From a marine bacterium B5-7 (GTDB lineage: Bacteria > Pseudomonadota > Gammaproteobacteria > Arenicellales > CAJQKF01), in assembly GCA_021604525.1 (NCBI GenBank), contig BQJD01000018.1:1-64000 (forward strand): a stretch of 64,000 nt of DNA. The letters run 5' to 3'. Positions 8,104 through 38,819 of the stretch are shown one piece after another. How positions within the stretch are numbered: the stretch's first letter is position 1; every line of letters begins with the position of its first letter. Below the pieces are notes generated by a model, which was not told the DNA's origin, did no database searches, and saw only the letters and a list, made by a program, of their open reading frames with translations. The position numbers and the translations under genes were made by a program.

Positions 8104-8223
8104 CCTTGAGTTTCAGGGACAGCATACTGAATTAATAATACATTCGGGATACTTGATATTGCATGCATAGAATATTGATTGGTTAATTAGTCGAACCTGA
8201 ATAATTTTGTGTAACAGCCCCCA

Positions 8224-8260
8224 TTACGACGGATCAAATATCATGCGTGTCCGGTCGTAA
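8224..8260. terminator. Stem-loop between amidohydrolase and Fic genes
   Basis: TTACGAC-GGA at 8224-8233 pairs with TCC-GTCGTAA at 8250-8260, leaving one bulged G and a 16-base loop. It lies between two convergent genes, so a bidirectional terminator role is plausible. No clear T run follows on either side. Confidence 0.35.
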
Positions 8261-8308
8261 GCCTCTTCGTGTCAGCTCGTTGGACCCGTTGTCCACAGCA
8301 ACCAATGG

Positions 8309-9370: not shown

Positions 9371-9384
9371 TTTTACCTCTAATT

Positions 9385-9433
9385 CCATCCATTTGGATCA
9401 TGACACAGAAGCATCCAATTATCCATCCAATTC
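9385..9433 (-). repeat. Short repeats upstream of the Fic gene
   Basis: On the minus strand AATTGGAT occurs at 9425-9432 and 9413-9420, in tandem 12-base steps. A near-palindromic ATCCATTTGGAT lies at 9387-9398. All are within about 65 bases upstream of the chosen start codon. Such clustered repeats suggest an operator, possibly for the Fic protein's own winged helix. Confidence 0.5.
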
Positions 9434-9599
9434 CATACAATAAAACTGAAGCTGGCCACCCAGGCCGAAAGGGCCGACCGCTAAATGTGCTAACCAAGAG
9501 GAGAACGCCATAATTTCGCGATGTTTTTCGGTGAGTCAGGGCTGTTCGCGATTCTCATAAATCTCCTTTTCGCCGGATTCGCGCAAACGAATACACCTC

Positions 9600-10005
9600 G
9601 CTTTCTCTATGGCATCTGTAACTGTCTATTGGCGGCCCACCTGGCAGGGATTTCAAAGGAACGTATGCAACGAATGCCAATGCTTTTCGGGCATCTGCTC
9701 GAGAACTTTGTTGTCAGTGAGCTGCGTAAGCAAATCGGCTGGTCGAGTATACGGGTTAGCATTTATCACTTTCGGACGACCGCAGGAAAGGAAGTGGATA
9801 TCCTGCTATAGGACGCGGCGGGACGCCTGATTGGTATTGAAGTGAAGCCATCTGCCACGGTGGTGAGGAAGGATTTTCCGGATTTGACGCGCTTATCAAA
9901 AGTGCTGCAAAACGGTTTGTACGCGGGATCGTGTTATACACTGGAAGTCAGGCTGTATCATTCGGGAAGAATTTATCGGCAATACAGGTAAACGCTTTGT
10001 GGTAG
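9600..10005 (+). pseudogene. DUF4143-type AAA ATPase, decayed C-terminal part
   Basis: The translation LAAHLAGISKERMQRMPMLF, then GHLLENFVVSELRK and YHFRTTAGKEVDILL, matches the C-terminal nuclease-like domain (DUF4143) of predicted AAA+ ATPases. The frame is broken by a TAG at 9809-9811. It then continues with AAGRLIGIEVKPSATV and shifts frame near 9905 to RFVRGIVLYTGSQAVSFGKN. The N-terminal ATPase with Walker motifs is absent. The gene is thus truncated, carries a nonsense codon and a frameshift, and is not functional. Adjacent Fic and toxin-antitoxin genes suit a defence or addiction setting. Confidence 0.75.
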
Positions 10006-10184
10006 ACAACAGACAAAGCAAAAAAATGTGGTCACGAAAGAAGATAAACAAATCTCAATGTGGCCGATGTCGGAATTATGGTCTCGGTGGTCTGACTTAA
10101 ACACACCCAGCAATATTCTCGCCGTGCCATGTAACGATTCTTTAGATCGGGTCGGAGTACACTCCATTTTCGGAGGGGTAAAAG

Positions 10185-11156
10185 ATGTCTGATCTCAATA
10201 CCGCAGCTGGACAAAATTACCAGCCAGAAATCGTAATGGTGCCGCCGCTATATGCTTGGCCACCCAAACCGCTTGCCGCACTGCGATATCTGTTTATTGA
10301 CTTACTTTATCCCTGGGGTTTTATCTACCTTATCCTGGCTTTTCCCACCTGGTGGTACCTGACCCCGGGTCTGGAAACTATGACCGACATTGATCCTGGC
10401 TGGATCGCGTTACTATGGTTGCGTAACTGTGCCTTCCTGTTCCTGTTTGCCGGTGGGCAGCATTGGTACCTGCATCGACGACGAGCTCAGGGCGAAGCCT
10501 ATCGGCTCAATCGCAAGAACCTGTCCAGTGACAACAAGCTTTTCCTCTGGAACGACCAGGTCAAGGACAACATGTTCTGGAGCATTGCATCAGGGGTGAC
10601 GATCTGGACCGGATTCGAGGCGATCAGCTATTGGATTTACGCTAGCGGTCGATTACCAATCATCGACAATCCCTGGTATTTCGTTGCGTGCATGTATTTG
10701 CTATTTCTATGGTCAACAGCGAATTTTTACGCAATACATCGTGTACTCCACTTTAAACCGATCTACAAGCACGTACATTTATTGCATCATCGCAACGTCG
10801 ATGTCGGACCCTGGAGCGGGATATCCATGCATCCGCTCGAACACCTGTTTTACTTTTCGCCATTCGTGCTCTGGTGGTTCATGCCGGTACACCCGGTGAT
10901 AATAATCTTGACCGGTTTTTATCAGGGATTGCATCCGACATCATCACATTCCGGCTTCGATTACCTGAGTCTCGGCAAGCTTCGTTTGAAGACAGGCGAC
11001 TGGTTTCATCAACTGCACCACCAGTACTTCAACTTGAATTTTGGTAATACACCAACGCCTTTCGACAAGCTATCCGGCAGTTGGCACGATGGCAGTAAAG
11101 AGTCGCTCCAGGTTCAATTATTGCGTTGGCGCAAAAGTCGTAGGAAGTTGCACTGA
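10185..11156 (+). CDS. Fatty acid hydroxylase / sterol desaturase family membrane protein
   Basis: A 323-residue integral membrane oxygenase. Hydrophobic segments occur near residues 35-57, 78-95, 130-150 and 165-185. The di-iron histidine clusters of the family are present: HRVLHFKPIYKHVHLLHHRN (HxxxH and HxxHH) and, later, HPTSSHSGFD and GDWFHQLHHQYFNLNFG. Relatives hydroxylate or desaturate lipids and sterols using O2 at the membrane; the substrate here is unknown. The start is supported by a GGAGGGG site nine bases upstream. The gene stands alone, and the ATPase pseudogene upstream shows no functional link. Confidence 0.88.
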   Translation: MSDLNTAAGQNYQPEIVMVPPLYAWPPKPLAALRYLFIDLLYPWGFIYLILAFPTWWYLTPGLETMTDIDPGWIALLWLRNCAFLFLFAGGQHWYLHRRRAQGEAYRLNRKNLSSDNKLFLWNDQVKDNMFWSIASGVTIWTGFEAISYWIYASGRLPIIDNPWYFVACMYLLFLWSTANFYAIHRVLHFKPIYKHVHLLHHRNVDVGPWSGISMHPLEHLFYFSPFVLWWFMPVHPVIIILTGFYQGLHPTSSHSGFDYLSLGKLRLKTGDWFHQLHHQYFNLNFGNTPTPFDKLSGSWHDGSKESLQVQLLRWRKSRRKLH

Positions 11157-18754: not shown

Positions 18755-19753
18755 GTGAAGAAAAGCGCACTGGTTTGTGGTGCCGGTGGTTTCATTGGCT
18801 CGCACATGGTCAAGCGGCTCAAGTCCGAGGGCTTCTGGGTGCGGGGCGCTGATTTGAAGCTTCCGGAGTATTCGGAATCGACTGCTGATGAGTTCCTCTT
18901 AGGTGACCTTCGCGAGCCGGAATTTTGTCAGTTGGCGCTGGATCGTCCGTTTGACGAGGTGTATCAGTTTGCAGCGGACATGGGCGGCGCGGGATATCTT
19001 TTCATCGGCGACAACGATGCCGATATCATGCACAACTCGGTGATGATCAATCTTAATGTACTCAGGGTATGTGCACAAAAGAGAATCGGGCGTGTGTTCT
19101 ATGCGTCCTCAGCTTGCGTTTACCCAATGTACAACCAGCTCGATCCAGGCAGCCCGAACTGTACCGAGGATACGGTGTATCCGGCAGATCCGGATAGCGA
19201 ATACGGTTGGGAGAAGTTGTTCAGCGAGCGGCTCTATCTTGCGTTTGCCCGAAATAAGGGAATCGTGTCTCGGGTAGCGCGATACCACAACATCTTCGGT
19301 CCCGAGGGCGCCTGGAACGACGGCCGGGAGAAGGTGCCGGCAGCCCTGTGCCGCAAGGTGGCCATGGCACAGGAAGGTGGCGAGCTAGAGATCTGGGGTG
19401 ATGGCGATCAATCCCGGTCATTTCTGTACATCGACGAGTGCATCGAGGCAACCTTGCGCCTGATGCGTTCGGACTGGATCGGTCCGGTCAACATAGGCTC
19501 CAACGAAATGGTCAGCATCAACCAGCTTGCCGAACGTATTATGGCTATCAGCGGCAAGACTCTAAGGATCCGGCATATCCCTGGACCACTTGGGGTGCGG
19601 GGACGCAACTCGGACAATCGACTTTTCCAGGAGAAGCTCGGGTGGCAGGTTTCCCAACCGTTGGTCGATGGATTGAAGCTGACCTATCCGTGGATAAAAA
19701 GCCAGGTCGAGGCAGCCGCGCGAAACAGAGAGGCTCAAGGTTCCAGCGGATAG
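18755..19753 (+). CDS. GDP-mannose 3,5-epimerase
   Basis: A 332-residue extended SDR enzyme that would convert GDP-D-mannose to GDP-L-galactose (and GDP-L-gulose). NAD binds at GAGGFIGSH (9-17). Motifs typical of plant GME follow: FAADMGGAGYLF, YASSACVYP, RYHNIFGPEG, GREKVPAALCRK, EIWGDGDQSRSF and RGRNSDN. C121, Y150, K154 and K193 sit at a constant offset of 24 from the catalytic C145, Y174, K178 and K217 that I recall for the Arabidopsis enzyme, which is strong support. The start is GTG. Its last 19 bases overlap the convergent glycosyltransferase gene. It probably supplies the nucleotide sugar for a transferase in this cluster, the protein O-fucosyltransferase-like one being the obvious candidate. 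Confidence 0.9.
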   Translation: MKKSALVCGAGGFIGSHMVKRLKSEGFWVRGADLKLPEYSESTADEFLLGDLREPEFCQLALDRPFDEVYQFAADMGGAGYLFIGDNDADIMHNSVMINLNVLRVCAQKRIGRVFYASSACVYPMYNQLDPGSPNCTEDTVYPADPDSEYGWEKLFSERLYLAFARNKGIVSRVARYHNIFGPEGAWNDGREKVPAALCRKVAMAQEGGELEIWGDGDQSRSFLYIDECIEATLRLMRSDWIGPVNIGSNEMVSINQLAERIMAISGKTLRIRHIPGPLGVRGRNSDNRLFQEKLGWQVSQPLVDGLKLTYPWIKSQVEAAARNREAQGSSG

Positions 19754-20886
19754 ACGAGTCTCGGCCCAAATCCGTCGCGACTGGAGTATGGCCATAGCAG
19801 GTATTGTACGGGGGTGTCGGTCAGACGGGTCTGTATTTCCACGTGGTCCGCGCACTTGGTCAGTATCCTGTCGTCCTTGATGTCGTAACGGTATAGCTCC
19901 TCGTCGTCCTCGTCCAAAAGACAAAATATCCAGTACTGATAATCATCACGCGCGTCGATCTCGCTGGTATTCAGTTGCAGGGTCTTTAGGTAGTCGACCG
20001 GATTTCTCTGCCTCTCGGCACGCTCCCGGAAACATATATCGGCGTATGTCTCGAATTCTTCCAGCGTTCGATTCGGACCCAGACCGTATGGGATGAGTTC
20101 GTGGTCTCGTCCCAGGACCAGATGTTGGAGACGCTCGATCGCACCCTTCCTTAAGGTCGTGTGCGTCAATGCATGGTCAGACCAGTGGAGCGGCATATCG
20201 TGGTCGTAGTAATGCCACAGCAAGTCTTCGTTCGGGTAGTAGAAGTTGTAGCCCCAGGTGTAGGCTCGAACGGCCAGGCTAATCTCTTCACCCTCGAAGT
20301 ACATGTTTGGATCGTATTCCACCTCGCGGCAAAAACGTCCGAGCGTAAAGATCATGCCGGCGGCCAGAAACGGGCTCTTCCCCGGCGCGGTCGTATCACA
20401 GGCGGGGATCGTCGACTGCATGGTGGTCAGGTTGCGACGGAATTTCGCCATCTTGAGCCGTTGAATACCACGGTCGAGCGTCAGCTCCTCCCGCCCGTCG
20501 ATGATCCGGTATGGTGGGGGATAGATGGTCAGTAGCGGTTTGTCATGGTCGATCGAACCGAGCATTTCGATACATTTTTCGTCCCAGTCCTGGGCAAAGC
20601 GCGTGTGCGAATCGATTTGAAGCGTGTACATCTCGTCCCGGTACAAGCGGTTAGTACGATGCCGTGCCCAGCAACAGCCGCGGCTTTCCCGATAGTAGAA
20701 CGGTTCGATACGAAAGCGGTTGTCGCCGATCCATTGATCCAGATCCAGCATGGTCGCTTCGTCATATTGCCAGCAAATGCCGAACGACAGCCTGTCAGGA
20801 TAGCGTGAGCGATCGAGGCAACTTTCGATAGTGAACGGTAGTTCCTTATCGCGGTACGAAGCGATCTGAACGAATATGCGATCCAT
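19735..20886 (-). CDS. GT60-like GlcNAc transferase (Skp1 hydroxyproline type)
   Basis: A 383-residue glycosyltransferase of the family that includes Dictyostelium Gnt1, which adds GlcNAc to hydroxyproline of Skp1. The start IFVQIASYRDKELPFTIESC, the middle ESRGCCWARHRTNRLYRDE and the metal/donor motif TLQIDSHTRFAQDWDEKC (DxH in place of a classic DxD) are characteristic. So is the later MYFEGEEISLAVRAYTWGYN acceptor-side segment. The last 100 residues form a small extra domain with many Asp/Glu/Tyr. The same catalytic domain occurs again inside the 1170-residue fusion at 24760-28272, so the locus has two. No signal peptide is seen. Confidence 0.85.
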   Translation of the reverse strand: MDRIFVQIASYRDKELPFTIESCLDRSRYPDRLSFGICWQYDEATMLDLDQWIGDNRFRIEPFYYRESRGCCWARHRTNRLYRDEMYTLQIDSHTRFAQDWDEKCIEMLGSIDHDKPLLTIYPPPYRIIDGREELTLDRGIQRLKMAKFRRNLTTMQSTIPACDTTAPGKSPFLAAGMIFTLGRFCREVEYDPNMYFEGEEISLAVRAYTWGYNFYYPNEDLLWHYYDHDMPLHWSDHALTHTTLRKGAIERLQHLVLGRDHELIPYGLGPNRTLEEFETYADICFRERAERQRNPVDYLKTLQLNTSEIDARDDYQYWIFCLLDEDDEELYRYDIKDDRILTKCADHVEIQTRLTDTPVQYLLWPYSSRDGFGPRLVYPLEP

Positions 20887-20918
20887 GTAACCGATGTCGG
20901 CCGTGCGGGTTGGTTAGC

Positions 20919-22955
20919 CTATCCGAAAAACCGCTGATGGAACTCGGCCATCTGCCCGATCATGTCGGTTTTGAAATGATAGTGATAAGCGTTCTCGACG
21001 GGCACCTGGACGGCCGGGTCTTTGTCAACGTAATCGATCATCCAAACTGACGGGGGCCTGACAAATGTGTTGTCCTCGGTTGGGCGCCGATCGGCGAGAA
21101 TGTTCTCGACGATTTGTTCCTCGGGTGTATCGCTGAAGTGGCGCGCGATCCACGAGCTAATCGCAACGTCGTCCGCGAACCGACCCTCGTTATCCCCGAT
21201 GATGCGGTAGGTGTCGGCGATAATTCGCTTGATCATGTCGATGGAGAAAAGCATCGATGCGCCACTAACGTATGGGCGGCCGGTGAACTCGCAGATGGCG
21301 ACCGGTCCATGAAACAGCATGTCGTCCTCGACTGACTCCACGTAATCTCGCAAGCGAGATTGATCGACGTAGCTGGAGGCACACACCGTGTAGACAAAGT
21401 CGTACTTGTTGGTGCTGGCGAGATGATTGAATGCGATCAGGCGCTTTCTGAGCAAACTGTCGTTTTGCAGGTGTATCGCGTCAGCACAGCCGCAGGCAAT
21501 CACGTTTCCCGATTGACGCGTCTGGAAAGCGGACAAGGATGGCGCGTCTCGACCGATGTATTTCTCGACGGCGTTCGTACTGACCACGGAGGGGTCGAAG
21601 TGTGATCCGATTGCGTAGAAGATGTCGATACCGGTGAATCGTCTGGAAGCCCAGGTCCGTTCGATGACGTCGAGACAGGTCACGTATTGGGGTAGAAGGC
21701 AGCCAAGAACGAGGACTGCGACTGACTTGCCGCGGACACCGCTGTCAGGCACAAGCGCCAACGGACGGCTGTCGGCAATACTGATCCTGGTCGATTCTTC
21801 TTGATCGACGGGTTCGGGTTGTTTGTGATCTGTTTCAACCGCGGCGAGTTGCGATAGGGGGAAATATAGCGTCTTGTCCCCAAGTTCGAGGTAGAACAAC
21901 TCGTTGTCGGCGGTATTCGCGTTGCCGGCGCGGGTTAATGCCAGCAACAACTGGTCCAGGATCGGATTATCGCAAGGGCAGGACAGCTCCAGCGGATCCA
22001 TCCCGTGCAGGTAAACGGTAACGTCGACGATCTCGGCGTCGGTCGTTGCTGGTGAATCGGCACAGTGGTGGTGTTCGACCGGCTCCGCCGGGCGTGCCTC
22101 AGTCAGGGCTCGCCGCCTGAGCGCGTCGCGTTCCTGTCGCGCTTCGTCAAATCCAGCACGCAGGCGTCCATAGTGTTGCAGCATGTCTCGGGCTGTATGT
22201 GATAGTGCCCCGCCAGACGTGTCGACTGTGTCTTCACACAAGGCGCGGTACAAGTCGGTTTGGCTATTGTTCATGAAAGCCAGTTGATCCGGGTCGTGTC
22301 GGGGTGAGATGTCGGGAGCACAGGAGATGACCCGCTTGAGCGCGGTTTCGACTTGCAAGGCAACTTTGAAATCGAGGCCCAGTAGTTTGCACAATCTCGA
22401 CAAGGATGCTTCAAGATTGGTCGCGCTGGATTCTTTGGAAATGAGCAGGCGCCGCGTGTCACGGGTATTCGCGAGGGCGGCGCGCAGGTAGTACTCCCAA
22501 AGCGCTAGCCCGTATGCGATGGGGAATCGCCATGTTTGCTGAAGCCGGGAGGCAACGTCGCAGGGGTGCTCGACGCAAATCACGTACACTGGTCCGGGAA
22601 TGTACTGCCTCCAATAGGGTACAAGGACACACATCGCCGGGTCGTTGCAGGTCCAGCGCTCCAGATGGTTCAGGGTGTCGCCACAGCTTTTTAACTGGCG
22701 ATCCAGGTCATGGGGCAGGGTGGACGGCTCGCCGCCAAGGGGCAAATTTTCGACGTGGTACCAGGTCGATTGCAGGGCTGAAAAAATCTGTTCGTTGATG
22801 AGACGAATCTGGTTAACAGGTGGCGCGTCGCCGGCTGCTGTACCCGCTGCATCGGCTTCACCCGAGTCCGATTCCAGCGGCCAGCCTGTCGAGTCGACGA
22901 GTCGTGCGTGCCACTCGGCATCTCCGCCGGGTGCCGACAACAGGATCAATTGCAT
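20919..22955 (-). CDS. Fusion of sulfotransferase-like and GT31-like domains
   Basis: A 678-residue protein of three parts. Residues 1-205 resemble sulfotransferase-like proteins (LILLSAPGGDAEWHARLVD, CVLVPYWRQYIPGPVYVICV, EHPCDVASRL), but the usual SGTS of the PAPS loop is replaced by GGDAE, so sulfate transfer is doubtful. Residues 308-374 are a roughly 65-residue domain (DVTVYLHGMDPLELSC...) that also occurs in the 1170-residue neighbour. Residues 409-605 look like a GT31/Fringe-type galactosyltransferase: VAVLVLGCLLPQYVTC, KYDFVYTVCASSYVD, PYVSGASMLFS, and the late RFADDVAIS with the catalytic Asp pair. A divergent promoter region of about 180 bases separates it from the Pro-rich protein gene. 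Confidence 0.7.
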   Translation of the reverse strand: MQLILLSAPGGDAEWHARLVDSTGWPLESDSGEADAAGTAAGDAPPVNQIRLINEQIFSALQSTWYHVENLPLGGEPSTLPHDLDRQLKSCGDTLNHLERWTCNDPAMCVLVPYWRQYIPGPVYVICVEHPCDVASRLQQTWRFPIAYGLALWEYYLRAALANTRDTRRLLISKESSATNLEASLSRLCKLLGLDFKVALQVETALKRVISCAPDISPRHDPDQLAFMNNSQTDLYRALCEDTVDTSGGALSHTARDMLQHYGRLRAGFDEARQERDALRRRALTEARPAEPVEHHHCADSPATTDAEIVDVTVYLHGMDPLELSCPCDNPILDQLLLALTRAGNANTADNELFYLELGDKTLYFPLSQLAAVETDHKQPEPVDQEESTRISIADSRPLALVPDSGVRGKSVAVLVLGCLLPQYVTCLDVIERTWASRRFTGIDIFYAIGSHFDPSVVSTNAVEKYIGRDAPSLSAFQTRQSGNVIACGCADAIHLQNDSLLRKRLIAFNHLASTNKYDFVYTVCASSYVDQSRLRDYVESVEDDMLFHGPVAICEFTGRPYVSGASMLFSIDMIKRIIADTYRIIGDNEGRFADDVAISSWIARHFSDTPEEQIVENILADRRPTEDNTFVRPPSVWMIDYVDKDPAVQVPVENAYHYHFKTDMIGQMAEFHQRFFG

Positions 22956-23136
22956 GGCTAATTCCTGGCGAACATGACGAAGGGATTTAATATGCGGTTG
23001 ACGATTGGCGAAGCGCCATCTCTTGCCGTCGAAGCCGACCTGACATGAATTGACTTATGTAGTGATAGACAGATAGACTTCAATTAATCTAACGGCTACG
23101 GCAAATTCGCGCAAGCTTTGCCTTGAGGTCCACGAT
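22956..23136. promoter_or_regulatory. Divergent promoter region of the Pro-rich protein gene
   Basis: The gap separates the 678-residue fusion gene from the Pro-rich protein gene. TTGACT (23050-23055) and TAGACT (23074-23079) lie 18 bases apart facing the Pro-rich gene, a weak but usable sigma70 match. A good ribosome site, TTGAGGT, ends nine bases before the ATG at 23137. Confidence 0.4.
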
Positions 23137-23466
23137 ATGTCAGACGAAGAAAACAAGACTCCCGAAGAGAAAAACAAGCAAAGCGCTCAACCCGATAAAC
23201 GCAAGACGGTCCGTCGGCTATTGACCGGCGGTGGCATCGTGACCGGCGCCAGCGCAGCGGGTGGCCGTTGGACCAAACCGGTGGTCGATTCCGTTCTACT
23301 GCCCGCGCATGCGCAAACGACCGGCGGGTCGCCGTCTCCAACGCCGTCCGTATCCCCGGCACCGACACCGCCACCCACCGACGTGCCGCCGCCGACACCA
23401 CAACCAAGCCCTAGCCCAACACCCGTGACGACGCCTTCGACGACGCCTTCGACGACAGGTGCTTAG
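23137..23466 (+). CDS. Small exported Pro/Ser/Thr-rich protein, candidate glycoprotein substrate
   Basis: A 109-residue protein with three parts. The first is a charged, Lys/Glu-rich head (1-23). The second is a Tat-like leader with R26-R27 (VRRLLTGGGIVTGASAAGG) leading into WTKPVVDSVLLPAHAQ, where AHA-Q (57-60) looks like a signal peptidase site. The third is a tail (64-109) of 46 residues holding 18 Pro and 19 Ser/Thr, largely SP, TP, PPP and TTPS repeats. Such a tail resembles plant extensin and arabinogalactan-protein modules. It is flanked by a prolyl-hydroxylase/glycosyltransferase fusion and other sugar and sulfate transferases, so I infer that it is their substrate. Nothing in it suggests an enzyme. 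The PAHAQT leader end recurs in small proteobacterial proteins of unknown role. Confidence 0.85.
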   Translation: MSDEENKTPEEKNKQSAQPDKRKTVRRLLTGGGIVTGASAAGGRWTKPVVDSVLLPAHAQTTGGSPSPTPSVSPAPTPPPTDVPPPTPQPSPSPTPVTTPSTTPSTTGA

Positions 23467-23495
23467 GGCGGATATTAAACCGGATATTTTCTGGA

Positions 23496-24737
23496 TTGAT
23501 TGTCTATTGGTGTGCCGACGATGAGTCGTGTCGGGACTATTTGCCGTCTTCCAGGCAGCGGAAGTACCTTACGTTTGAAGTCGACCGGGGTGGGCTAAAC
23601 AACATCCGCATGGCATTCGAATACGTGGTCGTCGTGGCCGCAGTTACCGGACGTACCCTCGTTCTACCGCCGCCCCAATCATGGTACCTTCTGCATCACG
23701 GACCGACGCACGAGAAACAATCGGGCGGTTACTGTGGCTTCGAGGACGTGTTCGACATCGATGCGTTGTCGAAGGTTGTACCAACCATCACCACTGCCGC
23801 TTTTTTACGCGCCGAACATCTCCATCTGGACATTGAGCCTTCGTTTGCGGACCCTGCAAGTCCGCTTTTGCAGGAGACGGCTCCTGTACCCATCGACCTT
23901 ATACGGCAATGGCAGCGTTGGCTGTTTGCAAGCACGCGCGTCATGTCATGGAACCCGTACGACACCGTGATCTGCCTGCCGGGCGTCGAGGCAGTGATGC
24001 GTGCGAACGTCCTGACAGAGCCGTTCATCGACCGTCGGGAACTGGTCGAGTTCACGCCGGCCATGGACGCTGCGCCGGTGATTCATTTCCCGTCCGGCAA
24101 CCACTACCGTCAACTCGGGCAGATCGCGACGATGCTGGCATGCAGTGATCCACAGTTTTTGAAAAATATACGCTTGCTGCTCAAGCACCACGTGCGCTAC
24201 GTGTCCCGCGTTTTCGAGGTTGCGGCGAGGTGTGTCGCGATGCTTCCCAAAGCTGGTTACTCCACCCTGCATATTCGGCGCAACGATTTCCAGTACTCGA
24301 ATTCGCGTGCGGATGCGGGACGTACCCTGGACAATATTCGCGCTCTCCTGAAAGAGGGCGAGCCGCTCTACATTGCGACTGATGAGTCCGATGAATCGTT
24401 TCTCGATCTGTTTCGACGGGAGCGTCCGGTTTATAGCTGGGCCGATTTCCGGTCGCCGCGTTGCGATGAGGTTGTAAACCACGAAAAGCTGAGGGATGAG
24501 CTCGTCGGTCCAGTAGAGCAGGTCATCTGCGCCACGGGTCGCGTATTTATTGGAACGGAGCTTTCAACTTTTTCAGGCTATATCACGCGACTCAGGGGCT
24601 ACATGGCGTCGCCGGATCGAAACACGTATTTTCATACGACCCGATATGATCGGTCAGATACGGCAGACGCACCCTCATCGCCCCACCGTGGTCGTGATTA
24701 CTTGCACGAATCACCCGAGCTGTGGGAGGGTCTTTAA
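23496..24737 (+). CDS. Protein O-fucosyltransferase-like glycosyltransferase
   Basis: A 413-residue protein related to eukaryotic GDP-fucose protein O-fucosyltransferases (PF10250 type). The donor-site region is YLTFEVDRGGLNNIRMAFEY at about 24-43, followed by GRTLVLPPPQSW. The C-terminal Rossmann half has STLHIRRNDF (conserved Arg for GDP-sugar binding), PLYIATDESDESFLDLF and VFIGTELSTFSGYITRLRGY. It starts at TTG 23496, 29 bases after the Pro-rich protein gene, the only plausible start before the conserved region. The pair is likely co-transcribed, implying that this protein acts on it. GDP-L-fucose is the usual donor, but the nearby GDP-mannose 3,5-epimerase points to GDP-L-galactose, a close analogue. 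Confidence 0.82.
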   Translation: MIVYWCADDESCRDYLPSSRQRKYLTFEVDRGGLNNIRMAFEYVVVVAAVTGRTLVLPPPQSWYLLHHGPTHEKQSGGYCGFEDVFDIDALSKVVPTITTAAFLRAEHLHLDIEPSFADPASPLLQETAPVPIDLIRQWQRWLFASTRVMSWNPYDTVICLPGVEAVMRANVLTEPFIDRRELVEFTPAMDAAPVIHFPSGNHYRQLGQIATMLACSDPQFLKNIRLLLKHHVRYVSRVFEVAARCVAMLPKAGYSTLHIRRNDFQYSNSRADAGRTLDNIRALLKEGEPLYIATDESDESFLDLFRRERPVYSWADFRSPRCDEVVNHEKLRDELVGPVEQVICATGRVFIGTELSTFSGYITRLRGYMASPDRNTYFHTTRYDRSDTADAPSSPHRGRDYLHESPELWEGL

Positions 24738-24759
24738 TCTTCCGTGGATAGATCAGGTT

Positions 24760-27700
24760 CTAGACAACGAACTCGTCATCGGTCTTATTGCTATCGTCTC
24801 CCGGTCTGAAGTGCACGAAAACGCTGGCGTAGCTGTCGCCGGCGAGCGCATCGGGCCTGCCGTGCAACAAACGTGCTCCCTCGTATAGCAACATGTCCCC
24901 GGGATGCATGTTGATCTTTAGCGGACGGTAGTAATTATCCTCGAGGTGTAGCGGCCAGTCCTTGTCAACAATCTGTTCAATATTCAGGATGGCGCTGAGT
25001 ATGTGAGTATCGATTCGATCACGGTGTAATGTCAGTGTGGCGCCGCGCCTGTAACGCCGAATTCCATACACAGCAGTCGACTCGAGTTTCTGACCGCACC
25101 AGCTCTCGAGGATCGGGCGCAAGGCCTTGCTCACTTCGATTTTAAGTGACCGAGGCAACTCGATCAGCTCGCTGGGGGTTCCCGATTCACTGCTGATATA
25201 GCCGGGAATAGATTCATCGAACGCCGACGCGCCCTGCTGCGTGTAGAATTGTTGCAGGCGTGACAACAGGTCCGATGGCATTTGCTCCTGCTTGTATCCC
25301 AATCGAGTATGGTTTGGTAAACACTCGGCCGGCTCCCGGCACCACATCTCCCCGCTCCCCTTCGATCTGAACCAAAACGTCAACACGGCCTTTTCGCCGG
25401 AGATCACCGGCTGGGCCCGATGCAATACGTCGGGATTCGGTGTCCCTGTGGGATAGAGATTATTCCACAGAACCACGCGTCCCGACGTTGGCTCGATAGT
25501 TCGACCAAGGCGAACCAACTCGGTCCCGCCGCCTTCGGCCACTTCGTTCAGATAGACCAGAGCGGTCCAGGTCCTTTGCCCACCCTTGGCATCATTGGCA
25601 TGTGTCTCAAAGGATTCTGTACCCGGGTCAAACCAGTCATAGTGCTCCTTGTATTCCTGACCCGGGAAGTAAATATGACCCTGCACGGGCTCGGCGTAGT
25701 TCGGGTTGATGCCCATCAACTTGCAAAGTCGCGTGCGCACACTATCGGCCAGCGGCACGTCCTTGAAATAACAGGTACTACTGGTGCGACCGGTCTCCGC
25801 ACCGGGCCCGCTGACCGTCGTGGACGGCTCCAGATCGGCCTTGATGGCAGAGACCAGCTCGGTGCATTCCTCGGCATTAAGGAAATCATCGACTACGTAG
25901 ATCTCGGCATTCGGCGTATCCAGCCGTTCGCCATTGGCGATGAAATGGTCCTCCGTTGCTGGTCTTTCAAACTCCAGTTCGCCGATGATCCGCTCCAGTG
26001 GCTCGGCGAGTTCGTGGCCGAGTTCCCGGGCAATCATTTCGTAGGCAAATCCTTTGTGGAGAAGTACTTTGAACAGGCTGTCCCGCGTACAGCCACGATT
26101 AACGTTGTCCCAGATCCAGTGCTTCCAGGTGTCGTCGAAACGAGCAGCTGCCGGAGACACCTGGCTTGTTGCACACTGCGACAGGAAAGCCTGACTGACC
26201 GGCGGCGACGCCTCTATCATCAGAAGTTGTGAACTCCTGAAGTAAAAAGCTGTCGGCGGATCGTCACCGAACTCGAGGTAAATGACGTCGTCACCGGCGC
26301 CGCCTGCCTGTTGGTTGAACAGCGCCTTGAACAGGGTCGCCAGCACCGGATTATCCTCGGAGCATGCCAGCTCCAGGGCGTCCATGTCGCGCAGCCGTAT
26401 GGTCAGCTCCAGCTCGGTTGGAGGTGAATTCGTGGTCACCGGTGTTACTCCAGATTTTTTTTCGTGTATTGATCCAGGCTTCGAGCGTAACGCCGGAATT
26501 GACGGTGGCACGCCGTTGGCGGCATCAGGATGAATGCTGTACGTACGGCAATCAAGTCCGGAGAAGCGCGTGAAATCTTCAAGCGTGCGCTGTTGTCCCG
26601 GACCGTAGCGTCCTAGCACTCCATCAGGGTCTCCTTCGAGCAGCGTCCGCAAACGATCCACGGCGATTTCGTGTTTTCGCCGGACTACCTCATCCGCGCC
26701 GTCGCTGATGAATTTTGGGTTGGGCTTCGAATGGCACCGGTGCCAAACTACGATCCGGCTCGGGTTGAAAAGATCATAGCCGTGGGTGTAAGACCGAAGG
26801 GTGAGCGCGAACTCCTCACCGGTATAAAGATGCTCGGGGTCCTGCCTGACCTCTTCGTTCCACTCGCCGAGCGTAAAAACAAAAGCGCCGGACAGGAATC
26901 GGGTGGCCCTTGGAAAGTCGGTGTTATTAGTGATGCGTTTGTGGGGATGATGGATCCAGCCTTCCACGCTCCATGACTCGGCGATCGCGGTCGGTACAGC
27001 GGCGGGGTTGTCGATGTCGGTCAGTTTGATATTGTCGTCTGCATCCCGCGTATAAAGCGGCGGAAACCCGGTGATCAACGGCTTGTCGCCTGGCAGGTCG
27101 TCGAGCATCTGTATCAGCAGCAGATCCCAGCTCTCGATGAAACGCGTGTGGGAGTCGACCTGCAGGGTATACGTCTCGTCCCGATACAATCCCTGGACCT
27201 GGTGCCTTGCCCAGCATCCACCGTTTGATTCAGTGTAATCGAAGTTGAGAATCCGAAACCTGTCGTCGGATGAGAAACAGTCCAGACAATACCGATTAAC
27301 ATCGGGCCCGCCATCGTCGTCATATTGCAAGCAGATTCCGAATCGCAGATTCTCAGGCTGCGCGGCCTTGGCCAGGCAATTCTCGATTGTCGACACCAAC
27401 TCGGGCTCTCGATAGGCCGCGATGGCGATAAAGATCGTACTGTGTCTCGTTCTCTCTGCCGTCTGTCGAAGCTCTGCATACTCGTTAACAAGTCCGATAA
27501 CGTCGCGGCAGTAATCCAACGCCGGCGCCTCCGGCAACTCGACACGACGCCAAGGCTTATAGCTGTACTTTGACCACAATTTGCGGTCGTTGCGAGCGCG
27601 AATAATCTGACAGTAGTGAACGATTGGCGCGCCTTTCACTCGTTCCTCGGGCCAAGGCATCCAGGCGGCCAAATTTTCCAGGGAATAAACGATCCCAAGC

Positions 27701-28272
27701 TCCGCCGAAGCGACTACGAGAGCGAACATGTCGCTCTCCCAGCCGCCGGTTCGGGTGCGATACTCCCGCGTAAGCTCGATCCAGCGTGGCATCAAGCGTT
27801 TGAGGTCGTCGGTGTGAATAAGCATCGGCCATGTACATGGCTGAAGTGCGGCGTAATCAACGTCGCTGAACTCACGTGTAATTGCCTTTCGGGAATCGGT
27901 GAAGCCGAAATCCAGCCAGTGTTGACATCGGGGACTGCCTGGTACGACCTCCGTTGCCAGACTTTTACGGAAAAGGAAGTCCGGATCGAGAATCAGCACG
28001 GTGCCCGACGGCTGGTGTTTCGATAGCCATTCGTCGAGTGAATACAGTCTGTTATACGGTGGGTACGTGTCCCCGGTATCCGGATCGGTGTTGGTGAATC
28101 GCGTACGAATCACCTGGGCGTGGCGGTGGACAGGAAGCGGCGTCGAATCCGGGCATGCCACCAGTCTGATAAGCTCACCCGGTTGCTCGCACTTGCTCCA
28201 CGAGTACTCGATCAGCTCGCATTGCCAATGAATCAGGTCGGACGTGTCCGTGCAGATCAAGGAATATATCAA
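24760..28272 (-). CDS. Fused HPAT/SERGT-like + GT60-like transferases + prolyl-4-hydroxylase + second 2OG oxygenase
   Basis: A 1170-residue fusion. (1) Residues 1-230 resemble plant Hyp O-arabinosyltransferase (HPAT) and peptidyl-Ser galactosyltransferase (SERGT): DTYPPYNRLYSLDEWL, metal motif D96-P-D98 in VLILDPDFLF, WPMLIHTDDLKRLMPRW, GGWESDMFALVVASAELG. (2) Residues 277-570 are a GT60-like GlcNAc transferase (GGCWARHQVQGLYRDE, QVDSHTRFIESWD). (3) Residues 619-688 are the small domain shared with the 678-residue protein. (4) Residues 787-970 are a prolyl-4-hydroxylase: H877 and D879 in KEHYDWF, H951, K961, and QRTWTALVYLNEVAEGGGTE. (5) Residues 985-1157 are another 2OG-Fe(II) domain with H1083-R-D1085 and H1137. 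It could thus hydroxylate Pro and glycosylate Hyp or Ser in one polypeptide. The start is TTG. It converges on the fucosyltransferase-like gene. Confidence 0.87.
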   Translation of the reverse strand: MIYSLICTDTSDLIHWQCELIEYSWSKCEQPGELIRLVACPDSTPLPVHRHAQVIRTRFTNTDPDTGDTYPPYNRLYSLDEWLSKHQPSGTVLILDPDFLFRKSLATEVVPGSPRCQHWLDFGFTDSRKAITREFSDVDYAALQPCTWPMLIHTDDLKRLMPRWIELTREYRTRTGGWESDMFALVVASAELGIVYSLENLAAWMPWPEERVKGAPIVHYCQIIRARNDRKLWSKYSYKPWRRVELPEAPALDYCRDVIGLVNEYAELRQTAERTRHSTIFIAIAAYREPELVSTIENCLAKAAQPENLRFGICLQYDDDGGPDVNRYCLDCFSSDDRFRILNFDYTESNGGCWARHQVQGLYRDETYTLQVDSHTRFIESWDLLLIQMLDDLPGDKPLITGFPPLYTRDADDNIKLTDIDNPAAVPTAIAESWSVEGWIHHPHKRITNNTDFPRATRFLSGAFVFTLGEWNEEVRQDPEHLYTGEEFALTLRSYTHGYDLFNPSRIVVWHRCHSKPNPKFISDGADEVVRRKHEIAVDRLRTLLEGDPDGVLGRYGPGQQRTLEDFTRFSGLDCRTYSIHPDAANGVPPSIPALRSKPGSIHEKKSGVTPVTTNSPPTELELTIRLRDMDALELACSEDNPVLATLFKALFNQQAGGAGDDVIYLEFGDDPPTAFYFRSSQLLMIEASPPVSQAFLSQCATSQVSPAAARFDDTWKHWIWDNVNRGCTRDSLFKVLLHKGFAYEMIARELGHELAEPLERIIGELEFERPATEDHFIANGERLDTPNAEIYVVDDFLNAEECTELVSAIKADLEPSTTVSGPGAETGRTSSTCYFKDVPLADSVRTRLCKLMGINPNYAEPVQGHIYFPGQEYKEHYDWFDPGTESFETHANDAKGGQRTWTALVYLNEVAEGGGTELVRLGRTIEPTSGRVVLWNNLYPTGTPNPDVLHRAQPVISGEKAVLTFWFRSKGSGEMWCREPAECLPNHTRLGYKQEQMPSDLLSRLQQFYTQQGASAFDESIPGYISSESGTPSELIELPRSLKIEVSKALRPILESWCGQKLESTAVYGIRRYRRGATLTLHRDRIDTHILSAILNIEQIVDKDWPLHLEDNYYRPLKINMHPGDMLLYEGARLLHGRPDALAGDSYASVFVHFRPGDDSNKTDDEFVV

Positions 28273-28753: not shown

Positions 28754-29458
28754 ATGCCGGTATATTTCAAGCACAAGTTGGTCCACATTCACATCCCCAA
28801 GACGGCGGGTACGGCAATCGAACGGTTCTTCCATCGTATAGGTGATATGGAATGGGGAACGAAATCATGGCTCGGCCAAAAACGGCATGACGAACGGTGG
28901 TATGAATATCAACACTTTTCCCTGGAAGAACTGTGGCACTTTGCGGGCACGCGTTTTCCCGGTTTCACGTCTTTTGCGGTCGTACGCGACCCGTTGACGC
29001 GATTGATCTCGGATTTTATCTGGCGTAGCTGGATACAGGAAGCACATCCGAATTCGCCTACGCAATTCTTCGACTCCTTCGATGAGTTTCTGGATGCGAT
29101 TCCAGACGATATCAACAGTGGCTGGTCAAAACATATCCAGGGCACCGATCAAAAGTGGGCAAACTTCCTGATTCATGTTCGTCCGCAGCACCATTTTGTT
29201 CTCGACGATTCGGGGAACTGTCTGGTGGACGTAATTCTCCGCTACGAGGTCCTGCCACAGGACTTTGCGTTGTTTCTCGAGCCTTTCGGATTGCGTGCAG
29301 ACAATATCAAGACGCCGCCGATCCGGGATCCTGACGAGTATTTCACCCGCGAACAAATCGAGCGGATCAAGACAATTTATGCCGGAGACTTCGCATTAAC
29401 ATCGCTCCCGAAGAACGCGACAGTCCCTATGATGTATGAGGGGGGTAATGCGTCATGA
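28754..29458 (+). CDS. Sulfotransferase family 2-like protein
   Basis: A 234-residue PAPS-dependent sulfotransferase. The 5'-loop is HKLVHIHIPKTAGTAIERFF (residues 6-25), an exact fit to the IPKTAGT signature. The 3'-phosphate motif is SFAVVRDPLTRLISDFIWRS (about 74-93). The remaining part ends with a helix typical of heparan 2-O and uronyl-type enzymes (YFTREQIERIKTIYAGDFAL). It is followed after 58 bases by the GT77-like gene, and then by a GT92-like gene on the same strand, which suggests a three-gene transcript. It is clearly different from the other sulfotransferases in the cluster, so a distinct acceptor is likely. Confidence 0.9.
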   Translation: MPVYFKHKLVHIHIPKTAGTAIERFFHRIGDMEWGTKSWLGQKRHDERWYEYQHFSLEELWHFAGTRFPGFTSFAVVRDPLTRLISDFIWRSWIQEAHPNSPTQFFDSFDEFLDAIPDDINSGWSKHIQGTDQKWANFLIHVRPQHHFVLDDSGNCLVDVILRYEVLPQDFALFLEPFGLRADNIKTPPIRDPDEYFTREQIERIKTIYAGDFALTSLPKNATVPMMYEGGNAS

Positions 29459-29516: not shown

Positions 29517-30368
29517 TTGACGGATCAGACGCCAACCAAAAAGTTGTCGTCCCTTGCAGTCGACATGCATCGAGCATACGTCGCCGAGGAAGAAAATCGT
29601 CGGCACAAACTCGATGCGCTGTTGGCGGGAGGCTCGCGTAACAACGTTGTATTGGTGATGATGGCAAACCGGGGATACAACGACCTGTTCAACAACTGGG
29701 TTCGCTCGTGTGACTTAAAAGGCATTGAGGTGCGCTCCTGGTCCATTCTCTTCGCAGTCGATGAGGAGGCCGCCGCCAACGCTGAGCGTCAGGGATTTCG
29801 TAACTATATTGATGCCATCTCATATGGCGACCAGCCACGAGAAGCTGTTAAGGCTTTCGGTGATCGGGACTTTCGCCTCCTGATGTTCCAAAAGACAGCG
29901 ATCGTTCGAGACGTCCTGAGTCTTGGCTATGACGTTTTGTTCCAGGATGTCGACATGGTCTGGCGAAAGGATCCTTTAACTTATTTGCTGGATGAGGGGG
30001 CAGTGGAATTCGATGCCCGTTTTATGTATGACGGCCGTAACCGGTTTCACAAACCACTCCACGCCAATACCGGTTTCTTTCTGCTGCGCAACCGTCCGGC
30101 CAGTCGGAAATTCTGGGACGAAGCGGTGTTAAGCTTCGCCGAGATGGCTCGCCGCGGCAGCCAGCAGTCCGTGATCAATTCTTTACTCGCCCAAGGGGGG
30201 TTGAGGGTCGATATCCTGCCCGAAGAGCACTTCGCCAACGGCCATCTTTTTAGCGTTAACCAACCGTCAAGGCTACCCGCCGACCCGTTCGTCATTCACT
30301 GTAGCTGGACCAGCAATCGCGAGCACAAGCTGTTGAAATACAAGCGCGAGAATTTGTGGTATCTCTAG
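29517..30368 (+). CDS. GT77-like nucleotide-diphospho-sugar transferase
   Basis: A 283-residue glycosyltransferase of the PF03407 type, related to GT77. That family includes plant extensin Hyp-arabinoside arabinosyltransferases (RRA, XEG113) and xylosyltransferases. The catalytic DxD is in LGYDVLFQDVDMVWRKDPL (about residues 138-156). Before it lies LLMFQKTAIVRDVLSLGYD, and after it the acceptor/donor segments HANTGFFLLRNRPASRKFWD, SQQSVINSLLA and FVIHCSWTSNREHK are conserved. The start is TTG with a strong GGAGG site seven bases upstream. No membrane anchor is seen, unlike the Golgi enzymes. In this cluster it would be suited to extend a sugar already attached to Hyp or Ser. Confidence 0.85.
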   Translation: MTDQTPTKKLSSLAVDMHRAYVAEEENRRHKLDALLAGGSRNNVVLVMMANRGYNDLFNNWVRSCDLKGIEVRSWSILFAVDEEAAANAERQGFRNYIDAISYGDQPREAVKAFGDRDFRLLMFQKTAIVRDVLSLGYDVLFQDVDMVWRKDPLTYLLDEGAVEFDARFMYDGRNRFHKPLHANTGFFLLRNRPASRKFWDEAVLSFAEMARRGSQQSVINSLLAQGGLRVDILPEEHFANGHLFSVNQPSRLPADPFVIHCSWTSNREHKLLKYKRENLWYL

Positions 30369-30412: not shown

Positions 30413-31483
30413 ATGCGTACTCCGACAGTCTCGATTCTTTGTGTCGCAAGAAACGAACCACCCTTTATAGAGGAGTGGCTGGAATACCACCTTATCCTTG
30501 GATTCGACCGGATCCATCTCGTCAGCACGGATGACTCCGTCACCGAGTTTGAGTCGTTCGCAAATGGATACCGCTTTGCTGAGAGCATCGAGCTGTATCA
30601 CTTCGACGACTTCAGGCCGGGGTGGCAGGTCAGATGCTATAACGCCTGTCTTCCCTTCATCAAGGAGGACTGGTTATTGGTAATGGATGTCGACGAATTC
30701 CTCTATCTGAGTGTTTACCAAACCATACAGGATTTCCTCGATGCCGTGCCCGGCGATGCAGGCCAGGTTCAGCTTCCCTGGTTAAACGTGCTTTCAGACA
30801 GCTACTTTCATGAGTGTACTTTTGATGTGCTAAATGAATCAAAAAAGTACGTTTCCAATCATGTAAAGAGTCTCGTCCGGCGGGAGCATGTGAGTGGACT
30901 CGGCATTCACTCTCATAAAATACATGGCCTCAAGAACATCTCTGGCGGCGCGGTTGAATTGCCTGCAAGTAATGTCCATCAGTTCGCCTTCGACAACCCG
31001 GGGTATTATGAAGAGCACCCGTTCGTGTTGCATTTTTTTTCGCGGGGTCATCTCGATGTTTTGAATCGGATTATTGACCATCGATTTTTCAACGCGAAAA
31101 ACGGGCCCATCGAAAGACAGAGACTCCACGACTTTCTGACGGGGGATCCCAACTGGACGAACATTCCCACCAAGTGCCTGATGATGCACTTTTATCGCAC
31201 GTTCCCCACGGTGGAATTAGACCTTGTTCTGCCGGATCTCAAGGCCGGGATTAATTTACCGGCGCTGAGACGTATATTTCTGGACAAGATTAACAGGGTT
31301 GTAGAATTTGATAGTGTTAGCAAAGAGTCGTTGGAGCATGATTTCGAGGCCCGCTACCTGCTTGCACATAAGCTCGCCATCATGGACTTGCCCGAAGTAT
31401 GGAGCCACGACGACTACTTTGAGTGTGGTACGCAACTTGAATATATCAAGCGACTACGAAACCTGTTGACGAGCACGACGTGA
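30413..31483 (+). CDS. GT92/GT2-like glycosyltransferase
   Basis: A 356-residue protein of the Glyco_tranf_2_4 / GT92 type. The N-terminal nucleotide-binding region SILCVARNEPPFIEEWLEYH is followed by LGFDRIHLVSTDDS and the DxD motif in DWLLVMDVDEFLYLS (about residues 83-97). The conserved SHKIHGLKN and IDHRFFNAKNG regions belong to the rest of the fold. Eukaryotic GT92 members add galactose to glycans, but bacterial relatives are mostly uncharacterised and occur with sulfotransferases in polysaccharide loci. It starts 44 bases after the GT77-like gene and appears to be the last gene of that transcript. Acceptor and donor are unknown. Confidence 0.85.
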   Translation: MRTPTVSILCVARNEPPFIEEWLEYHLILGFDRIHLVSTDDSVTEFESFANGYRFAESIELYHFDDFRPGWQVRCYNACLPFIKEDWLLVMDVDEFLYLSVYQTIQDFLDAVPGDAGQVQLPWLNVLSDSYFHECTFDVLNESKKYVSNHVKSLVRREHVSGLGIHSHKIHGLKNISGGAVELPASNVHQFAFDNPGYYEEHPFVLHFFSRGHLDVLNRIIDHRFFNAKNGPIERQRLHDFLTGDPNWTNIPTKCLMMHFYRTFPTVELDLVLPDLKAGINLPALRRIFLDKINRVVEFDSVSKESLEHDFEARYLLAHKLAIMDLPEVWSHDDYFECGTQLEYIKRLRNLLTSTT

Positions 31484-37976: not shown

Positions 37977-38819
37977 TTAATCAAGATAGGAATCTTCGCG
38001 CCACCCGGCACGCTCGAAGTGTATAGGTAACGCTTTGCCATAAAGCTGTTTGGACCGCTCTGGTGTGCCGACCATGCCAGGTTTTTGCACATACGAAAAG
38101 ATAGCAACGTATCTTGGGATTGATCCGGAAAGCGGGGCGACTCGATGCAATGAATAACGACCTTGGAACAACTGCAGGTCCCCGGGTTCAAGATTGATGG
38201 TTCTAACCCTATTTGATGTCCCCTCCAAGACTTTTTTAACTTCTGGAAAATTTTCATCGTCGACGCGAATATGCGGCGCATATTCAAACTCACCACCAGA
38301 GGTTGCGTTTTGAATAGCCAATGTCACGGTGAAGTTATTGGTATCAAAATGCCACGGAAATCCATTACCCGTTTCAGCCATATTAATAATGACGTCAGCT
38401 AATGGATCAGCATATCGATAAAAATTTTCTTCTTGTAAACAGTCTCTGATGAATGGATCAAATGACGGAAAATCATGAATTGTACGCAGCGCTCCTGAAG
38501 GTGCAAAGTTGTCTGCGGAAATAAAGTTGTTGGACCGGTCAAAAAAAGCTCTGCGAGGATCATCCTCCGATAGAGATGGCTCATCTTGCGTGAAGTAGGG
38601 GTTCGTTCGGCTGAACGAGCGATGGCCATTTCTGGAAACGGAATCCGCTTCGTTTTTTAAAGCACATACCCCATAGTCGGTCAGAAAGCGCTTAACAATC
38701 GCGCAGCCATCTGCTGCAAGATCAGTACGAATCCGTTCAATCAGTTTTTGGTGTCGCTGCCCTTTAACATGAATTGGGTAGTCTTGCAGGTTGATTAAAT
38801 CGTTGGCAGTGAAGTTCAC
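37977..38819 (-). CDS. 2OG-Fe(II) oxygenase of the HalD/BesD-like family, HxD triad intact
   Basis: A 280-residue enzyme that resembles BesD-type amino acid oxygenases over its whole length (FPWHFDTNNFTVTLAIQNAT, SGGEFEYAPHIR, PGDLQLFQGRYSLHRVAPL). BesD and HalD are radical halogenases because a Gly replaces the Asp of the iron triad, leaving room for chloride. Here the triad appears complete: H157 and D159 in WHFDT, and H225 in SLHRV, with R236 for 2OG. I therefore infer hydroxylation, not chlorination, probably of a free amino acid. The gene stands alone between a serine hydrolase and a sulfatase, with no clear pathway partner. Confidence 0.8.
   Translation of the reverse strand: MNFTANDLINLQDYPIHVKGQRHQKLIERIRTDLAADGCAIVKRFLTDYGVCALKNEADSVSRNGHRSFSRTNPYFTQDEPSLSEDDPRRAFFDRSNNFISADNFAPSGALRTIHDFPSFDPFIRDCLQEENFYRYADPLADVIINMAETGNGFPWHFDTNNFTVTLAIQNATSGGEFEYAPHIRVDDENFPEVKKVLEGTSNRVRTINLEPGDLQLFQGRYSLHRVAPLSGSIPRYVAIFSYVQKPGMVGTPERSKQLYGKALPIHFERAGWREDSYLD

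Follow-up and report, generated by a model that had tools for sequence, protein, structure and literature searches.

What might a bacterium do with an enzyme that joins glycosyltransferases and prolyl hydroxylase in one polypeptide chain? The question is raised by P0001, a predicted protein of 1170 amino acids encoded in a 64,000-nucleotide stretch (the window) of contig BQJD01000018.1 of the marine gammaproteobacterium B5-7, which belongs to a draft assembly of 4.4 Mb in 119 contigs (G000). On balance we consider P0001 to be the core enzyme of a prokaryotic glycosylation system for proline-rich protein segments of the Ser/Thr-Pro type. The bacterium and several lineages of aquatic phages possess matched enzyme sets that probably hydroxylate and then glycosylate proline-rich surface proteins.

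The open reading frame (ORF) of P0001 runs from 28272 down to 24760, comprising 1170 codons on the minus strand, a point on which an earlier reading of this DNA (the sequence-only reading) was silent. It starts with TTG, preceded by a weak AGAAG, with an upstream stop five codons before the start. Whole-genome searches revealed full-length relatives in the related genomes G001 (72% identity), G091 (51%), G003 (47%) and G086 (48-52%). Alignment of the five sequences showed that the domain order is kept in all orthologs and that D96/D98, H877/D879/H951/K961 and H1083/D1085/H1137 are invariant. Because of these full-length orthologs with the same domain order, the 1170-residue frame claimed by the sequence-only reading can be regarded as a real gene and not as a chance frame. 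A scan of genome contigs with the single P0001 sequence gave a same-genus ortholog as the sole match, and the distribution described below is therefore taken from whole-genome searches.

The N-terminal domain is, by profile and predicted fold, a GT-A glycosyltransferase of the HPAT/SERGT family. Pfam HPAT (PF23452) matches residues 5-220 with an E-value of 2e-10 and 40.9 bits, as compared to a gathering cut-off of 23.9 that is exceeded in all seven matching genomes of the order. The domain has no sequence relative in the PDB and fold comparison was therefore used. A structure model of full-length P0001 was confident for the prolyl 4-hydroxylase (P4H) domain, the second 2-oxoglutarate (2OG) oxygenase domain and much of the GT60 domain, and poor for the HPAT domain and residues 584-710; residues 36-154 and 584-710, with predicted local distance difference test (pLDDT) scores below 50, were left uninterpreted. 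After this poor result the HPAT domain was modelled separately, together with the phage relatives described below. Modelled alone it reached a pLDDT of 86.9 and matched retaining GT-A enzymes of the GT6/glycogenin type (Z about 16.5), with the DPD sequence (96-98) immediately following the strand formed by residues 91-95. Residues D96, D98, M182 and H219 are invariant in bacteria and phages. The HPAT/SERGT-like transferase with a DPD motif, as proposed earlier, is borne out by the PF23452 match and the GT-A fold with its DxD motif; residues 1-246 are modelled as a GT-A transferase, and the fold on which the proposal depended at residues 1-230 is thus present in the model. The following domain was correctly recognized as a GT60-like transferase, for which we find a match to PF11397 (GlcNAc/GT60, residues 337-575, E 1.5e-47), a ppGalNAc-T-like fold (model 261-582 on mucin-type ppGalNAc-T2, Z 17.3) and a DxH motif with a downstream His. 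D373, H375, W510 and H511 of this domain are invariant across the five orthologs.

The C-terminal half carries the two oxygenase domains. Residues ~777-977 have a P4H fold with an HxD...H iron triad and a 2OG-binding Lys, and form a predicted hydroxylase. The Pfam profile 2OG-FeII_Oxy_3 matches residues 864-969 (E 3e-15) and the Bacillus P4H matches the domain with an E-value of 1e-19. Alignment to structure 5hv0 places H877, D879, H951 and K961, so the complete ligand set reported by the sequence-only reading aligns with real P4H enzymes and no ligand is lost. Similarity to P4H structures is high overall (Z 20-22), the top match of model 777-977 being the algal P4H in complex with (Ser-Pro)5 (3gze, Z 22.6). 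A Pfam scan gave no match for the second 2OG domain. The domain is modelled with good confidence and matches the structure of a 2OG oxygenase (6n1f, Z 15.9, residues 989-1161) as well as PHROG 2954. The fold match, the double-stranded β-helix with HxD...H and the invariant ligands agree with the earlier assignment of H1083, D1085 and H1137. An Arg at position H+2 is conserved in bacteria and phages alike. PHROG 2954 and 3531 match residues 1049-1160 of this 2OG-Fe(II) domain, yet carry a ferrochelatase label, which is also found in GenBank phage records and looks wrong.

Between the GT60 and P4H domains a small domain had been noted. There is indeed something at this position, which consists of two pieces instead of one: an accessory module (~612-698) and a helical segment (~712-762). 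The latter recurs N-terminal to P4H domains in other genomes. P0002 and the GT77-type enzymes of G003 and G091 also contain the module of ~85 residues, and an O-fucosyltransferase (O-FucT)-HPAT protein of genome G022 has two copies of it; in the home genome there are two copies in total, both within the P0001 locus. It may be a shared docking or substrate-recognition module.

The likely target of these activities is encoded next to them. P0004, a candidate substrate, ends 30 bp ahead of the start of P0005 and has a tail of 50 amino acids with 36% Pro, the prolines mainly following Thr, Ser and Ala; nowhere in the tail is Ser followed by three to five consecutive Pro. Its leader is common to about 20 otherwise unrelated proteins of the home genome (loci L035-L051), among which P0004 is by far the most Pro-rich (36% versus at most 13%), and occurs in many genomes that lack the cluster. 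For this reason the leader is considered a general export signal, and a role as an enzyme-specific tag was dismissed. The leader family follows the Tat-like pattern W-x-KPVV-x-x-V-x-LPAHA-QTT ahead of unrelated mature parts, a conservation that goes beyond the need of a plain signal peptide. The position of P0004 is taken in G001 and G091 by a leader protein whose Pro-rich tail is different, and in G022 such a protein lies at the contig end, adjoining the O-FucT-HPAT gene. G003 and G086 have a leader peptide without Pro-rich tail followed by a separate ORF that starts with SPT/APT-type sequence. These two ORFs are consecutive and in the same frame (L055:12762-13475 in G003, L057:18768-19472 in G086); stop readthrough joining them was rejected, with two or more stops in between and an ATG of its own for each ORF.

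The association follows the HPAT domain. HPAT domains were found in 7 of 109 genomes of the order, and only the home genome was positive among 398 sampled genomes of the phylum. Each of the six HPAT loci that have sufficient flanking sequence has a Pro-rich protein no more than about 2 kb away (leader plus tail in G000, G001, G091 and G022, separate ORF in G003 and G086), the seventh locus being cut by a contig end. Bacterial genomes with P4H-2OG proteins that lack HPAT have no leader or Pro-rich partner nearby, and phage loci with P4H-2OG but no HPAT have no Pro-rich partner, so that P4H alone was rejected as a predictor of such a neighbor. The sequence-only reading had suggested peptides from the tail of the 23137 protein as substrates, an idea that is strengthened by the conserved Pro-rich partner and this co-occurrence. 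A P4H gene in G014 that adjoins a leader protein was dismissed because that leader protein is not Pro-rich. In G079 a P4H-2OG protein is encoded about 6 kb from a long (TP)n-repeat protein with a CxxCH motif (L062:569-1957 and 7935-8507).

A second, unrelated setting is provided by phages. Scanning IMG/VR with the five-ortholog alignment gave 25 contigs of uncultivated aquatic phages, with cassettes consisting of a P4H-2OG protein, an HPAT-O-FucT-GT60 fusion of about 917 amino acids, a stand-alone GT60, carbamoyltransferases and an epimerase. Genes close to the cassette encode proteins with extended repeats of the APTPAPTPSPT or VTPSPVTPSP type. Profile comparison shows homology between the HPAT parts of phages and bacteria (PF23452 itself did not match the phage relative P0006 at E 0.01). 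The phage P4H profile matches the Chlamydomonas P4H at 2e-29. After collapsing loci by shared sequence into lineages, a Pro-rich ORF was found in 11 of 13 HPAT-positive lineages and in none of 27 HPAT-negative lineages with at least 15 kb of sequence (Fisher p 3e-8), the negative set being a fair but narrow control that mostly comprises relatives of one lineage, found via its RNR gene. A GT60 tree groups the fused bacterial domain with the stand-alone GT60 of the phages at full support, which fits an exchange of cassette components among phages and bacteria. No HPAT-bearing cassette was found in a collection of cultured phages. The cassettes contain one or two NodU/CmcH-type carbamoyltransferases (L148:6863-8410 and 9322-10884), which suggests carbamoylated glycans.

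The features of the locus are collected in Table 1. P0005 is conserved in G001, G091, G003, G086 and G022. The epimerase has homologs in G001, G086 and the phage cassettes, and the GT77-type gene in G003, G091 and G086, two of these homologs carrying the accessory module. P0002 gave no match in a Pfam scan; by eye its N-terminal part is sulfotransferase-like and its C-terminal part glycosyltransferase-like. The orthologs in G001, G091, G003 and G086 are flanked by O-FucT, GT60 and P0002-like genes, mostly also by sulfotransferase and GT77-type genes. G022 rearranges the same domains into an O-FucT-HPAT protein, a double-GT60 protein and a P4H-2OG protein. Obviously the fusion pattern varies, with HPAT-GT60-P4H-2OG in bacteria, O-FucT-HPAT in G022 and HPAT-O-FucT-GT60 in phages.

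Table 1. Features of the P0001 locus, with positions in the window
Feature	Position	Strand	Basis
P0001, HPAT–GT60–module–helical–P4H–2OG fusion enzyme, 1170 aa	24760..28272	minus	ORF, Pfam, five full-length orthologs
HPAT/SERGT-type GT-A domain, aa 1-246; DPD motif aa 96-98 at 27979-27987	27535..28272	minus	PF23452, model, fold match
GT60 polypeptide GlcNAc-transferase-type domain, aa 274-582; D373-x-H375 at 27148-27156, H511	26527..27453	minus	PF11397, fold
Accessory module, aa ~612-698, common to several locus enzymes	26179..26439	minus	Hidden Markov model (HMM) of 13 copies
Small helical segment, aa ~712-762, ahead of P4H	25987..26139	minus	Helices in model
P4H domain, aa ~777-977; H877, D879, H951, K961	25342..25944	minus	Bacillus P4H, 3gze
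Second 2OG-Fe(II) domain, aa ~989-1161; H1083, D1085, H1137	24790..25308	minus	6n1f, PHROG 2954, invariant ligands
P0004, candidate substrate, 109 aa	23137..23466	plus	Twin-arginine translocation (Tat)-type leader ...WTKPVVDSVLLPAHA and Pro/Ser/Thr tail
P0005, PoFUT2-like GDP-fucose protein O-FucT	23496..24737	plus	PF10250 E 7e-27; 4ap5 E 1.5e-6
P0002, accessory module at aa ~300-385	20919..22955	minus	Module HMM
P0003, stand-alone GT60	19735..20886	minus	PF11397 E 1.3e-60; conserved near P0001 orthologs
GDP-mannose-3',5'-epimerase (GDP-L-galactose donor)	18755..19753	plus	Arabidopsis GME 2c59, E 5.7e-95
Sulfotransferase	28754..29458	plus	PF03567; conserved near orthologs
GT77-type Nucleotid_trans glycosyltransferase	29517..30368	plus	PF03407
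GT2_4/GT92-type glycosyltransferase	30413..31483	plus	Pfam, locus comparison

The G+C content is 0.56-0.57 at positions 20001-28000 and 0.46-0.55 elsewhere in the window, which is compatible with lateral acquisition of the cluster. Downstream of the cluster lies a gene for a HalD-like (halogenase D) 2OG-family protein (37977-38819), of which a homolog adjoins the G003 cluster (L055:19206-20000). Further on, positions 47832-50081 encode the large and medium subunits of a diol/glycerol dehydratase in one ORF, followed by its reactivase. Interpretation of the locus as a defence system was rejected, as PADLOC matched merely a generic 2OG model.

From these observations we infer a series of chemical steps. 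P0001 has no export signal and is therefore expected to act in the cytoplasm, where its P4H domain would hydroxylate X-Pro prolines in the tail of P0004, giving 4-hydroxyproline (Hyp). Within the same polypeptide, the GT60 and HPAT-type domains would then attach the first sugars to Hyp and/or neighboring Ser/Thr residues. Extension and sulfation of the glycan could be carried out by the O-FucT-like P0005, the second GT60, the GT77-type and GT92-type enzymes and the sulfotransferases; GDP-L-galactose or GDP-L-fucose is the likely donor for P0005 because a GDP-mannose-3,5-epimerase gene is present. The accessory module on P0001, P0002 and other locus enzymes may allow docking on the common substrate or on each other, and the decorated P0004 would be exported by means of its Tat-type leader. 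In phages, the same domain set would decorate their own fibre-like proteins with (A/S/V/T)P repeats. We give about even chances to the broader proposal of a complete and mobile hydroxyproline-glycoprotein (extensin/mucin-like) system shared by bacteria and tailed phages, with the phages modifying the Pro-rich stalks of their own fibres.

The main rival explanation concerns the acceptor residue. The same Pro-rich substrates might receive their sugars on Ser/Thr from the GT60 and HPAT/SERGT-type domains, with prolyl hydroxylation serving only to shape the polyproline helix or to mark sites. The tails are rich in Thr and Ser besides Pro, and the GT60 domain has a ppGalNAc-T fold. The Pfam HPAT family also takes in Ser-galactosyltransferases. 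Moreover, GT60 enzymes modify Ser/Thr of mucins as well as Hyp of Skp1 (PMC8724618). The fusion of P4H to GT60, however, resembles the Hyp-specific Skp1 enzyme of Pythium described in that source, and we regard this mucin-type variant as unlikely, if the most serious alternative. A surface polysaccharide or lipopolysaccharide locus, in which the oxygenases have sugars or lipids as substrates and the small Pro-rich protein is a bystander, would fit the surrounding nucleotide-sugar, sulfotransferase and glycosyltransferase genes. It is improbable, since no Wzx/Wzy, polymerase or flippase was recognized among the window genes scanned, the P4H, GT60 and PoFUT2-like families modify proteins, and the Pro-rich partner is kept in bacteria and independently in phages.

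P0004 could also be the precursor of a secreted glycopeptide, similar to ribosomally synthesized and post-translationally modified peptides, of which a short core is hydroxylated, glycosylated and released. It is small, with a leader and a core, and the tails of the leader proteins in G000, G001, G091 and G022 are shorter than 60 amino acids. With a leader that serves unrelated proteins throughout the order, also in genomes without the cluster, and long repeat proteins as phage counterparts, this is more improbable still. Least probable of all is an oxygen-sensing modification of a folded cytosolic protein as in Skp1: the enzyme pairing is the same as in P4H1-Gnt1, but the locus encodes a Pro-rich partner and many further transferases, and HPAT and sulfotransferases are foreign to the Skp1 pathway. 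That P4H folds can modify folded proteins, as other bacterial P4Hs do with EF-Tu (matched structure titles 4iw3, 5v7y), is one of several points that weigh against a Pro-rich glycoprotein system. In G003 and G086 the leader is encoded apart from the Pro-rich ORF, which itself lacks one; the HPAT-positive phage lineages L260-263 and L274-276 show no Pro-rich ORF in the available flanks, and the narrow negative control for the phages was mentioned above. Phage relatives have Arg at position H+12 of the second 2OG domain, where the bacterial proteins have Ala, Ser or His. Finally, the bacterial genomes compared are draft assemblies or metagenome-assembled genomes, and the orthologous loci are mutually non-independent.

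Glycosylation of hydroxylated Pro-rich proteins by enzymes such as P0001 would have parallels in eukaryotes, where Hyp-linked glycans have been described for plants, algae and protists (PMC8724618). In the plant extensin pathway P4H, HPAT (GT95) and GT77 enzymes are separate proteins (PMC5371791). The sequence-only reading extended this to eukaryotes in general, with separate proteins in endoplasmic reticulum (ER) or Golgi, which is incorrect: enzymes that modify Skp1, a part of the eukaryotic SCF ligase, are cytoplasmic and often fused (PMC8724618), and Pythium has a dual P4H/GlcNAc-transferase for Skp1 in one polypeptide (van der Wel 2019, as cited in PMC8724618). Hydroxylation of Pro and its glycosylation by a single chain is thus not a new arrangement, as had been claimed, and the P4H-GT60 fusion itself was already known; new here are the HPAT domain, the bacterial setting and the locus. 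Similar to the Skp1 pathway (P4H1/PhyA, Gnt1 of GT60, AgtA of GT77), the P0001 system joins P4H to GT60, is predicted to be cytoplasmic, includes a GT77-type gene and probably has Hyp as acceptor. Unlike that pathway, it is bacterial or phage-borne, carries an HPAT-type domain, a second 2OG domain and the accessory module, and its putative substrate is an exported Pro-rich protein instead of Skp1. With the plant and algal extensin and arabinogalactan-protein route (P4H, HPAT of GT95, SERGT of GT96, RRA/XEG113 of GT77) it shares a P4H nearest to the algal (Ser-Pro)n enzyme, the HPAT family, a GT77-type gene and a Ser/Thr/Ala-Pro-rich candidate substrate. The P4H, HPAT and GT77 families and the Pro-rich leader protein all occur in the P0001 locus. 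Whereas plants use separate ER/Golgi proteins, the P0001 system appears cytoplasmic, is partly fused and includes GT60 and O-FucT, which are absent from the plant extensin pathway.

Foldseek matches for the P0001 model include LH3 (PLOD3, 6fxk), which joins a 2OG hydroxylase to glycosyltransferase domains. The likeness lies in sequential modification by one chain, but LH3 acts on lysine instead of proline, has an unrelated glycosyltransferase arrangement and is an ER enzyme. The P4Hs of Bacillus anthracis and Pseudomonas putida and vCPH of PBCV-1 share the catalytic fold and ligands of the P0001 domain; to our knowledge, none of them is fused to or clustered with HPAT, GT60 or O-FucT. In Synechococcus phage S-SCSM1 a 2OG oxygenase lies on either side of an O-FucT, accompanied by genes for GDP-mannose epimerase and carbamoyltransferase, but no HPAT or GT60 domain was matched. 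No bacterial or phage system for Hyp glycosylation was found in the open-access literature, where absence is no proof.

If our interpretation is correct, the bacterial and phage version would represent a simple cytoplasmic route to hydroxyproline glycoproteins, and it bears on the origin of the HPAT and GT60 families. The viral use of P4H has been called cryptic (PMC9301287). Modification of phage fibre stalks, if true, would explain the purpose of phage prolyl hydroxylases, and with a defined candidate pair of enzyme and substrate the viral use of P4H becomes testable.

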